Assembly: GCA_012839565.1 (NCBI GenBank) | Contig: DUMZ01000019.1 | Coordinates: 62,001 to 126,000 of the forward strand | Direction of reading: 5' to 3' | DNA length: 64,000 nt | From: Anaerolineaceae bacterium | Lineage (GTDB): Bacteria; Chloroflexota; Anaerolineae; Anaerolineales; Anaerolineaceae | Shown here: positions 55,481-58,175 of the stretch, in pieces | Layout of the letters: every line of letters begins with the position of its first letter | How positions within the stretch are numbered: the stretch's first letter is position 1 | Position numbers and translations under genes: made by a program | The notes under the pieces: generated by a model | Seen by the model: the letters and a program-made list of their open reading frames with translations, nothing else | What the model was told of the DNA's origin: nothing | Database searches by the model: none

Positions 55481-55504
55481 GTCAGTCCTCGTTAAAGAAA
55501 TGTT

Positions 55505-55604
55505 GGGCAGGTTTGCCGGCAACACCCAGAGATACCTCCTTACCGCTGCTTCCTCTCGGACCTGACGGGGTTCGCAGGGCTCTGCCGCACCGGTCCCACC
55601 CAAC
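55505..55604 (-). ncRNA. ffs: Signal recognition particle RNA, small bacterial type
   Basis: The minus strand carries the invariant domain IV: GTCAGGTCCG, a short tetraloop, then GGAAGCAGC and GGTAAGG. Outer strands pair as well, GGGTGGG (55601-55595) with CCTGCCC (55511-55505), and CCGGTGCGGCA with TGTTGCCGG. Length is about 100 nt. It binds Ffh and targets membrane and exported proteins. Protein frames predicted across it are artefacts. The ends are estimated from pairing and promoter position. Confidence 0.93.
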
Positions 55605-55697: not shown

Positions 55698-56222
55698 TTA
55701 AATCAGACTCTGGTCGCAAATATCCTGATAGCCACAACCACGACAACGAGCCACTGCGCCATGTGAACGGCTGGGCACGTCAGCGCAAGCTTCAACTGCA
55801 CGCAGCTGATTAATCAAATCCAAAAACCTTTCCTTTTCAGCCTCGCTGTAGGGCACTTCAAAACTCTTATCCTGATAACGAATGACCCCATAAGGCGGTG
55901 CTTGCCCATAACTTTGCTCCAGCAAGTAACAATACGCCAAAACCTGAAAGACATGCGCGCGGTAAGCTTGGACAGGCGCGGGGGTTGACTTGAAATCAAC
56001 CGGCACCAACTCACCACTTGCCAGACGCATCACGTAATCCGGTTTGCCAACCAGTCTTAGCTTTGAATCAAAAAACGGCTTGGGAACGGCTTGCAGCTGG
56101 TCGGTATCGGCGTATATCAGACGTCCGCTGGGCAGTCCACTGGCCTTTTTGAACCATAAGGCAAGCAGTACCAAAACAAGCGCGATACCTAATAAGAGAA
56201 CAGGTATAAGCCAGCTTTTCAT
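55698..56222 (-). CDS. Cas4/RecB-like nuclease, C-terminal half, membrane anchored
   Basis: A protein of 174 residues. Residues 4-24 form a membrane helix followed by KK. Then comes a PD-(D/E)xK core: VGKPDYVM with Asp62, VPVDFKS with Asp76 and Lys78, HVFQVLAYCYLLEQ with the Q-x-x-x-Y motif (Gln93, Tyr97), and a C-terminal cluster Cys160, Cys163, Cys169 (CRGCGYQDIC). Cas4 binds its [4Fe-4S] cluster with one N-terminal and three C-terminal cysteines; the N-terminal one is missing here and found in the partner gene, with which it overlaps by ATGA. No cas genes or CRISPR array are near. Confidence 0.8.
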   Translation of the reverse strand: MKSWLIPVLLLGIALVLVLLALWFKKASGLPSGRLIYADTDQLQAVPKPFFDSKLRLVGKPDYVMRLASGELVPVDFKSTPAPVQAYRAHVFQVLAYCYLLEQSYGQAPPYGVIRYQDKSFEVPYSEAEKERFLDLINQLRAVEACADVPSRSHGAVARCRGCGYQDICDQSLI

Positions 56223-56440
56223 TTCCCCACCAGGATAATGATCAGGGCTATCAATGCCAGCAAGGCTGCGACAACAATCAGGACGGGTATCAGTTTCACC
56301 TGCCGGGCATGGGTTTGATGGCTTTGCGTGCCGGCATCCATGGCGGGCTGATTCACTGATGGCTCACCTTGCAACTGATACCACCAAGCCCGCTCGCAAT
56401 ACAGAAAACTGTTCAGTTCCGAAGCTTTAATCACACGCAT
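56219..56440 (-). CDS. Cas4-like nuclease, N-terminal half, membrane anchored
   Basis: A protein of 73 residues. It begins KASELNSFLYCERAWWYQ, with Cys15, and continues to a G-x-x-x-H segment (His41), which are the first Fe-S cysteine and the first motif of Cas4/Dna2-type nucleases. Residues 49-72 form a hydrophobic helix ending GK. Its stop overlaps the ATG of the next gene (ATGA), so the halves are made together. With N-terminus inside for this half and C-terminus inside for the other, the two soluble parts would meet at the cytoplasmic face. The ribosome site is weak. Confidence 0.72.
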   Translation of the reverse strand: MRVIKASELNSFLYCERAWWYQLQGEPSVNQPAMDAGTQSHQTHARQVKLIPVLIVVAALLALIALIIILVGK

Positions 56441-56691: not shown

Positions 56692-57342
56692 TTACTGGTT
56701 AGCTTCTCGGTCAGCTAACAGTTCGGTGAATTCATCTATTTTCTTGGTCAGCATTTCCTGACGGTAGGCGGTGGTGATATCCGCGCGGGTGCGCTCGATG
56801 ATACCCCGTGCCAGGTCCGTCCGCCGGCGCAGTCCATCGGTAACAGCATCTGGATAATCCATCGTTACCAGTTGGGTAAAAATCTCATCCATGTTGAAAA
56901 GCAAACGTTCAACTTCATCGGTATAACCTGTGCGCAAGATATCCAGGCAACGTCGCCGCATCTCACCGATGGTTTCAGTCAGCCCATTCAGCCACGCGGG
57001 AAGATCTATGCCCATTTCGTTGGGAGAAGGAATAGGCTGGTCGTAAATAATCGCCGCGGTTAGCTTGGCTTCGCAAAACTCCTTTAGCGCGTCCTGAGTG
57101 TAGCCTGTGTAATAAAGGTCAGGATGTTCACGCTTGAGATGCTGAAGAATGTCATCCACTATCACCTGACCCTGTTGCAATTCTTCTTGTGCCTGCTGCA
57201 CATCGCCCCTGTGAATAGCGCGAATGGTAAGCGAGGCACGGCGAATCAACTCGCGCGCGTTTTTGAGAGCTTGCTCACGCTGATCGGTTTTCGCGTTGAA
57301 TTCCTCGTGAATTTGCTCACAGATTTTTTCTAAATTCTTCAA
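56692..57342 (-). CDS. Translin-family protein
   Basis: TTG 57342 is taken as start, one base after the DUF3467 stop and six bases past AGAAGG; an ATG at 57432 would overlap that gene by 89 bp. 216 residues, all helical. Translin/TRAX signatures: RAIHRGD (41-47), Y-x-x-G-Y-x-x-D-A-L-K-E-F-C-E-A (78-92), LNGLTETIGEMRRR (118-131) and NMDEIF (150-155). Glu88, Glu91, Glu127 and Asp152 are placed like the acidic residues of RNase-active TRAX. Translins bind ssDNA/RNA and some cut RNA. It shares an operon with SSB. Confidence 0.85.
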   Translation of the reverse strand: MKNLEKICEQIHEEFNAKTDQREQALKNARELIRRASLTIRAIHRGDVQQAQEELQQGQVIVDDILQHLKREHPDLYYTGYTQDALKEFCEAKLTAAIIYDQPIPSPNEMGIDLPAWLNGLTETIGEMRRRCLDILRTGYTDEVERLLFNMDEIFTQLVTMDYPDAVTDGLRRRTDLARGIIERTRADITTAYRQEMLTKKIDEFTELLADREANQ

Positions 57343-57343
57343 A

Positions 57344-57658
57344 CTAGCCTTCTTCCGACGGGTCTTTTGGGTCTGCTGTTCTAAAAAGCTGGTCAGCCAG
57401 CGAGTGTCCTCTGGGGATTTTGATTTCGCCAAAGTTTTTCTCGTAGCGCAGCAAATTCTCGGTCAAGGCCTGCAAAAACAGCTTTGCGCCCAAGGGCGAG
57501 AAAACCAGTCGTGTACTTATCTTGGGCTTTATTCCCGGCAACATACCTGCAAAGTCGAGAATAAATTCCTGGGGCGTATGTGAGATATACGACATATTCA
57601 CATACGTTGCGGGCAAGTCTTCTGGTACGGTAATGGTAATTTTTTTGATATCCGCCAT
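57344..57658 (-). CDS. DUF3467 protein
   Basis: A protein of 104 residues. YVNMSYISHTPQEFILDFAG, later TRLVFSPLGAKLFLQALTEN and YEKNFGEI, follow the DUF3467 pattern (N-x-x-x-x-x-x-S-x-x-E-F-x-x-D-F, then R-x-x-x-S-P-x-x-A-K, then Y-E-x-x-F-G). The family has no known function. It lies between SSB and the translin-like gene with gaps of nine bases and one base, so it is probably linked to nucleic-acid work. Confidence 0.88.
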   Translation of the reverse strand: MADIKKITITVPEDLPATYVNMSYISHTPQEFILDFAGMLPGIKPKISTRLVFSPLGAKLFLQALTENLLRYEKNFGEIKIPRGHSLADQLFRTADPKDPSEEG

Positions 57659-57667
57659 TACTGCGAC

Positions 57668-58066
57668 CTAGAAGGGGATTTCGTCATCATCCATGGAATC
57701 GTCCATGTAATCACTTCCACCACCGGCAGAATCAGAGCGGGATGACAAGAAGCGCACCGTCTCCGCGGTTACTTCGTAGCTGCTTGCCCAGCTTCCGTCG
57801 TTGCGCTGATAAACGCGTGGTCCGCCATATTGTGGATCGGGGTACAGGCGTCCTTCAACCAAAACTTTGGAACCTTTCTTGAGATACTGATTGCAGCTTT
57901 CGGCTTGTCTGCCCCAAACTGAAATGCGGAACCAGGTGGTTTCGTCAGTATCTTTGTAACGGCGGCTGGTCGCAACGCTAAAGCTGGTAACCGGGTTTCC
58001 GTCTGGCGTGAATCGCATTTCTGGGTCACGTCCTAAATTGCCTACGATAATAAGTTTCTGATACAT
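57668..58066 (-). CDS. ssb: Single-stranded DNA-binding protein
   Basis: ATG 58066, preceded by AAAGGA, gives 132 residues; the longer frame toward 58276 runs across the tRNA. The OB fold begins KLIIVGNLGRDPEMRFTPDG, has FRISVWGRQAE and a short Gly/Ser linker, and ends in the acidic tip DDEIPF that recruits partner proteins. It coats ssDNA in replication and repair. First gene of the SSB-DUF3467-translin operon. Confidence 0.95.
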   Translation of the reverse strand: MYQKLIIVGNLGRDPEMRFTPDGNPVTSFSVATSRRYKDTDETTWFRISVWGRQAESCNQYLKKGSKVLVEGRLYPDPQYGGPRVYQRNDGSWASSYEVTAETVRFLSSRSDSAGGGSDYMDDSMDDDEIPF

Positions 58067-58175
58067 CTTTGTAAAATCCTTTCGCTTTTGTGTCGAATCT
58101 TCAGCTATAATTTTACTAGAAAAAGCCCTGTTATGGAAACTTTTTTTGATGCTTTTCAAATCCACAACAAAACGC

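Follow-up and report, generated by a model that had tools for sequence, protein, structure and literature searches.

Nucleases of the Cas4/AddB/Dna2 type act on free DNA ends, and those that carry an Fe-S cluster are, to our knowledge, single chains. The arrangement of one plus three cysteines that holds the cluster is also present in Dna2, AddB and Exo5, and MGME1 is without a cluster; we know of none among these four that is built from two membrane-anchored chains. Membrane-tied nucleases are known from natural competence in EndA and NucA. Within the Cas4 family, one N-terminal and three C-terminal cysteines go together with the biochemistry of a 5'-3' DNA exonuclease (PMC12538437). Cas4-family genes outside CRISPR loci, termed solo-Cas4, are monophyletic in many Chloroflexi, and uncharacterised roles in repair or defence have been suggested for them (Hudaiberdiev et al. 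2017, PMC5704561). The words 'split' and 'transmembrane' are both absent from the main text of PMC5704561, and no published description of a split Cas4 was found in the literature searched. The Cas4 family itself is already known, and the split, two-gene membrane form described in the following is apparently undescribed.

The window analysed here, a stretch of 64,000 nucleotides from an Anaerolineaceae bacterium, carries on its reverse strand two genes that we consider, with good confidence, to encode an obligate two-chain, membrane-anchored Cas4-family Fe-S nuclease having a single shared active site and cluster. Half 1 (56219..56440) encodes 73 residues comprising an N-terminal Cas4-type nuclease part and a C-terminal membrane helix; half 2 (55698..56222) encodes 174 residues that start with a membrane helix and continue into the PD-(D/E)XK core. 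The stop and start codons of the two genes overlap in an ATGA (56219..56222), and a possible ribosome-binding site, GGTGGGGAA, is situated 5' of the half 2 ATG. Half 1 contains C15 (codon at 56396..56398), predicted as the sole N-terminal Fe-S ligand, then the GTQSH sequence with H41, which together with G37 constitutes motif I (G37xxxH41), and finally the hydrophobic C-terminal helix with basic residues on its N-terminal side. In half 2, the N-terminal helix has KK on its C-terminal side and precedes all catalytic motifs of that chain, namely GKPD (D62), VDFK (D76, K78) and QVLAY (Q93, Y97); C160, C163 and C169 (codons within 55716..55745) are predicted as the three C-terminal Fe-S ligands. 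The first-pass annotation had identified both reading frames, their overlap and the listed motifs and cysteines, all of them correctly as judged from the sequence and the ORF translations. Its statement that neither half alone holds a complete site stands as well: H41 and C15 are in half 1, the remaining catalytic residues and the other three cysteines are in half 2, and the full catalytic set with four cysteines exists only in the pair.

Profile searches assign the two genes to complementary parts of one family. The match of half 2 to PF12705 extends over positions 120-247 with 45.8 bits, above the cut-off; half 2 also passes the cut-off of PF01930 with 35.9 bits, and scores 61.5 bits over positions 58-178 of TIGR00372 (cas4), for which the cut-off is 65. 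Half 1 gives weak matches, none passing a cut-off, that are confined to the initial 45-60 positions of these three profiles, so supplying the start of each where half 2 supplies the remainder. Searching the half 1 profile against solved structures gave no match by sequence. In 99 linked pairs from relatives, counted together with the pair of the window, C15, G37, H41, D62, D/E76, K78, Q93, Y97, C160, C163 and C169 are each conserved 100/100, well beyond what chance would produce. The pair thus presents the motif-I histidine, the aspartate, the (D/E)xK, the QhXXY and the 1+3 cysteines characteristic of Cas4, in two genes instead of a single polypeptide. Compared to the nearest relative, dN/dS is 0.37 for half 1 and 0.08 for half 2, which indicates purifying selection on both genes.

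Among the described systems, solo-Cas4 (COG1468/PF01930) is alike in having the PD-(D/E)XK core, the QxxxY and the 1+3 cysteines, in being located outside CRISPR loci and in being inherited mainly vertically. As a Cas4-family gene set found outside CRISPR loci, the pair belongs to solo-Cas4 as defined, but it is a variant, consisting of two genes rather than the one of PMC5704561 and having a membrane hairpin in the middle. CRISPR-associated Cas4 (7mi4; type I-C, 8d3l) shares the fold, the active site and the cysteine pattern; it is, however, a single soluble chain encoded beside cas1/cas2, whereas the pair is split, membrane-anchored and without cas neighbours. The nuclease domains of Dna2, AddB, Exo5 and MGME1 belong to the same superfamily and have the same overall fold, yet they are parts of larger single chains or, in MGME1, are devoid of the cluster. 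EndA and NucA act outside the membrane using an unrelated active site, in contrast to the catalytic part of the pair, which is predicted to be cytoplasmic and to contain an Fe-S cluster.

The genomic neighbourhood of the pair does not include cas1 or cas2. Directly upstream of half 1 is the gene of a TRAX/translin-like protein (56692..57432), followed by those of a DUF3467 protein (57344..57658; PF11950) and of the single-strand DNA-binding protein SSB (57668..58069; PF00436), all on the reverse strand and all, the TRAX-like protein included, understood as context. The TRAX assignment derives from the orthologue in a relative (L179), which matches AfTRAX (3zc1) with an E of 2.7e-25; the score against Pfam Translin is 22.9 bits, under the cut-off of 25.9. 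In the TRAX-like gene of the window, acidic residues are conserved that may correspond to the RNase site of TRAX. Half 2 is followed on its strand, after about 100 nt, by a gene for the bacterial small SRP RNA (55502..55601), and a methyltransferase is also among the neighbours. The genes often found 3' of half 2 in relatives we take, from our own reading of the sequences, to be NAD kinase and RecN, and in other classes the pair presumably follows an RseP-like gene.

Given this surrounding, the pair, the TRAX-like nuclease and SSB might form a module for nucleic-acid decay or defence whose target at the membrane would be RNA or invading DNA. The order SSB-DUF3467-TRAX-half 1-half 2 is shared by the window and close relatives, the part up to half 1 recurring also in L001-L004 and L158, and a TRAX-like gene is placed directly upstream of half 1 in 70/110 genomes, 12 of these with half 2 elsewhere. 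TRAX is, however, present in 180/199 genomes of the class, including genomes that lack the pair, and being so nearly universal it is uninformative as a partner in phylogenetic profiles; moreover, inheritance of the pair looks vertical, and no defence-island neighbours were seen in the loci compared. We regard the module as a possible but rather unlikely explanation. Regarding CRISPR, the first-pass annotation had reported no CRISPR or cas genes, which is accurate for the window but not for the genome: a complete-looking type I-C locus with Cas8c-like, Cas7, Cas4, Cas1 and Cas2 and about 89 repeats is found outside the window (G000:C6:122000-134403, L191). The description of the pair as a non-CRISPR relative of Cas4 is retained, with the CRISPR-associated Cas4 of the genome encoded elsewhere. 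Since the type I-C locus has its own single-chain Cas4 of 220 aa, the split protein is no stand-in for CRISPR adaptation.

Both chains appear to be anchored in the membrane. Membrane helix 1 spans about residues 51-72 of half 1 (56225..56290), and in half 2 residues 4-24 or thereabouts (56151..56213) form membrane helix 2, both assigned from the statistics of the 99 pairs, in the case of helix 1 from hydropathy and charge. All half 1 sequences pass the simple hydropathy threshold used for a membrane helix. Of the half 2 sequences 94% do so, while in the other 6% the N-terminal helix is under the threshold. Over the 99 pairs, the mean number of Lys and Arg residues around helix 1 is 3.25 before and 0.46 after, and around helix 2 it is 0.25 before and 3.72 after. 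By the positive-inside rule, this asymmetry of charge suggests that half 1 is oriented with its N-terminus in and its C-terminus out, and half 2 with its N-terminus out and its C-terminus in. The nuclease parts of both would therefore be cytoplasmic, and the break between the genes would fall on the outer side, in the loop of a membrane hairpin.

For structure prediction we used the pair of a relative from the same order (L073), in which the halves share a frame and are separated by one TGA, which was read through to give a linked chain. In the alignment behind the model (A4), half 1 and half 2 are for the most part on separate, unlinked rows; it replaced an alignment (A3) that had placed membrane helix 1 on helix 2. 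When A4 was compared as a profile to the single-chain Cas4 of the genome, the C-terminal part alone was aligned. AlphaFold2 returned a mean pLDDT of 93.2 and a pTM of 0.86 for the linked chain, with one continuous helix (31-84) in which the motif-I region is joined to membrane helix 1, another helix (96-124) corresponding to membrane helix 2, and the beta core after it; the hairpin is long. The best solved match is Cas4 in Geobacter Cas4/1 (7mi4), with Z 19.8 and 2.7 A for 178 residues in the model range 1-268; type I-C Cas4 (8d3l) gives Z 18.5, and AdnA, SSO0001, Exo5 and Dna2 follow. In line with the single enzyme envisaged in the first-pass annotation, the linked chain of the orthologue forms one confident Cas4 fold, in which the proximity of the halves is partly imposed by the linking. 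That the halves assemble into one enzyme is strongly suggested by the model, the linkage in L073 biasing the chains to meet. Half 2 might instead work alone as a membrane nuclease or nucleic-acid binder, half 1 being a regulator or chaperone outside the fold: half 2 does have the D, the D/E-x-K and the QxxxY that form the core of many PD-(D/E)XK enzymes. We consider this improbable, for the pieces that half 2 is missing, the first cysteine and the motif-I histidine, are located in half 1 and are invariant there in 100 sequences, and the linked halves give a single confident fold.

The two-gene form is conserved across Chloroflexota, also with the genes far apart, and represents a genuine division of the enzyme, not the remains of a damaged gene. 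An orthologue of half 2 is present in 50/61 close and order-level relatives, and in the first relatives examined half 1 was always a separate ORF directly upstream, with its own C-terminal membrane helix. When 199 genomes of the class were searched with a profile for each half (A1 and A2), half 2 was found in 138 and half 1 in 141, a few of the half 1 matches being weak; with the weak matches removed, both genes are present in 136 genomes, half 1 only in 2, half 2 only in 1 and neither in 60 (Fisher p=2e-47 for co-occurrence). The absence of both genes from a third of the class implies that the function is dispensable. At the level of the phylum, 129/400 genomes have a half 2 match at E<=1e-10 and 115/400 a half 1 match at E<=0.01, numbers that include some ordinary Cas4 and weak matches. 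Half 2 without half 1 was considered from 18 loci at which half 1 seemed to be missing, and it was rejected when a targeted search of the 18 genomes recovered half 1 in every one, mostly at a distance. No single intact gene was found as the general form.

The spacing of the halves is equally informative. Among the 136 class pairs, 55 are adjacent (gap <=150 nt), 37 are separated by 151-3000 nt, and the remaining 44 have their halves unlinked or on separate contigs; separate contigs are by themselves no proof of distance in draft genomes. Distance is evident in a one-contig genome (G070), where the halves are found at 3,051,906 and 244,715, and in G520, which has them on one contig at 1,076,035 and 188,716. 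Overall, the gap varies from -1 to thousands of nt in all relative frames, and the split is common to many families and to other classes. Several genomes have a whole gene between the halves; at 11 loci (L097, L130, L157, L169-L174, L177, L179) a gene for an L,D-transpeptidase (YkuD) is located between the halves or beside half 1. With unlinked pairs and free spacing, neither frameshift nor read-through nor translational coupling can be a general requirement, and the products of unlinked genes must meet as separate chains. That a single protein arises at the overlap, through read-through or a programmed ribosomal frameshift, would accommodate the arrangement in the window, as well as the four loci L049, L073, L086 and L088 in which the halves share a frame with one stop between them, but it is rendered highly improbable by the variation in frame and spacing, the intervening genes and the many unlinked pairs. 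A recent frameshift or an assembly error in an ordinary solo-Cas4 gene, for which the 4-nt overlap in the window could speak, as it might occur in a broken gene, is practically ruled out by the conservation of the split over families, classes, frames and spacings, by the unlinked pairs including that of G070, and by the purifying selection on both genes.

Nor does a single-gene ancestor emerge from the fusions. The sole intact single-chain forms with a membrane hairpin were found in three loci of one family (L107, L111 and L112; f82), each as one ORF in which the motif-II Asp is lost, GKPD having changed to GKPT, ARPA or GKPA. Two of the three could be placed in the tree, nested within the split clade, and all three are probably derived, inactive fusions and possibly pseudo-enzymes. 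Separately, both halves are fused into a short soluble protein in L136 (3800-4459, forward strand), with no membrane helices; it is degenerate, having neither the motif-I His nor the D/E of the D/E-x-K, and is on this account probably inactive. In a small tree, all split forms stand apart from single-chain Cas4 with support of 91/86.

Translated searches of plasmids extend the distribution beyond Chloroflexota. Pairs of the same anatomy with a 4-nt overlap are found on Paludisphaera borealis PALBO2, Singulisphaera pSINAC03 and Marinobacter pMAQU02, the half 1 of the last being divergent, and another pair of this anatomy is carried by Bacillus subtilis plasmid NRS6116_2. These pairs from Planctomycetota, Marinobacter and B. 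subtilis (L193, 2642-3423; L196, 2151-2923; L194, 1480-2414; L195, 1676-2414) carry the annotation of a hypothetical protein, or CFI-box-CTERM in the case of Marinobacter, next to a PD-(D/E)XK or Dna2/Cas4 protein, and their placement in the small tree is uncertain due to long branches. Relatives of the pair were not found in the viral contigs and phages searched.

The obligate two-chain nuclease is proposed to form as follows. With the N-terminus of half 1 and the C-terminus of half 2 both inside, the two helices would pair as a hairpin, in whose short outside loop the break between the chains would lie. The helix bearing the motif-I His would continue directly into membrane helix 1, and the two cytoplasmic parts would close into one Cas4 domain with one active site, its [4Fe-4S] cluster being held by cysteines from both chains (C15 of half 1; C160, C163 and C169 of half 2). 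The domain would thus be fixed at the inner face of the membrane, and neither chain would be active alone, activity needing both genes and assembly in the membrane. By analogy to the family (PMC12538437), we infer a 5'-3' polarity for the split enzyme. As for its task, our tentative suggestion is the trimming of 5' ends, or the degradation, of DNA that arrives or becomes exposed at the inner membrane face.

Lastly, the pair has implications for how the family is counted and understood. As half 2 passes the cut-off of PF01930, half of the enzyme was probably counted among the Chloroflexi of PMC5704561, so that solo-Cas4 numbers for Chloroflexota are probably based on one half of a protein; the 73-aa partner has probably been overlooked, as a hypothetical protein or a missed gene. 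With the homologous pair on plasmids of Bacillus subtilis, the function becomes accessible to tests in a model organism. A broader picture, plausible to us at low confidence, is that of an old Chloroflexota class of obligate two-chain, membrane-anchored Fe-S nucleases, switched by assembly and spread through plasmids to Planctomycetota, Gammaproteobacteria and Bacillus subtilis, that gate DNA crossing the membrane. If the proposed assembly is true, nuclease activity would be switched on only by the pairing of helices in the membrane, catalytic residues and cluster ligands being divided between two proteins; with one cysteine provided by one small membrane protein and three by another, this would be an enzyme that requires membrane assembly to work.
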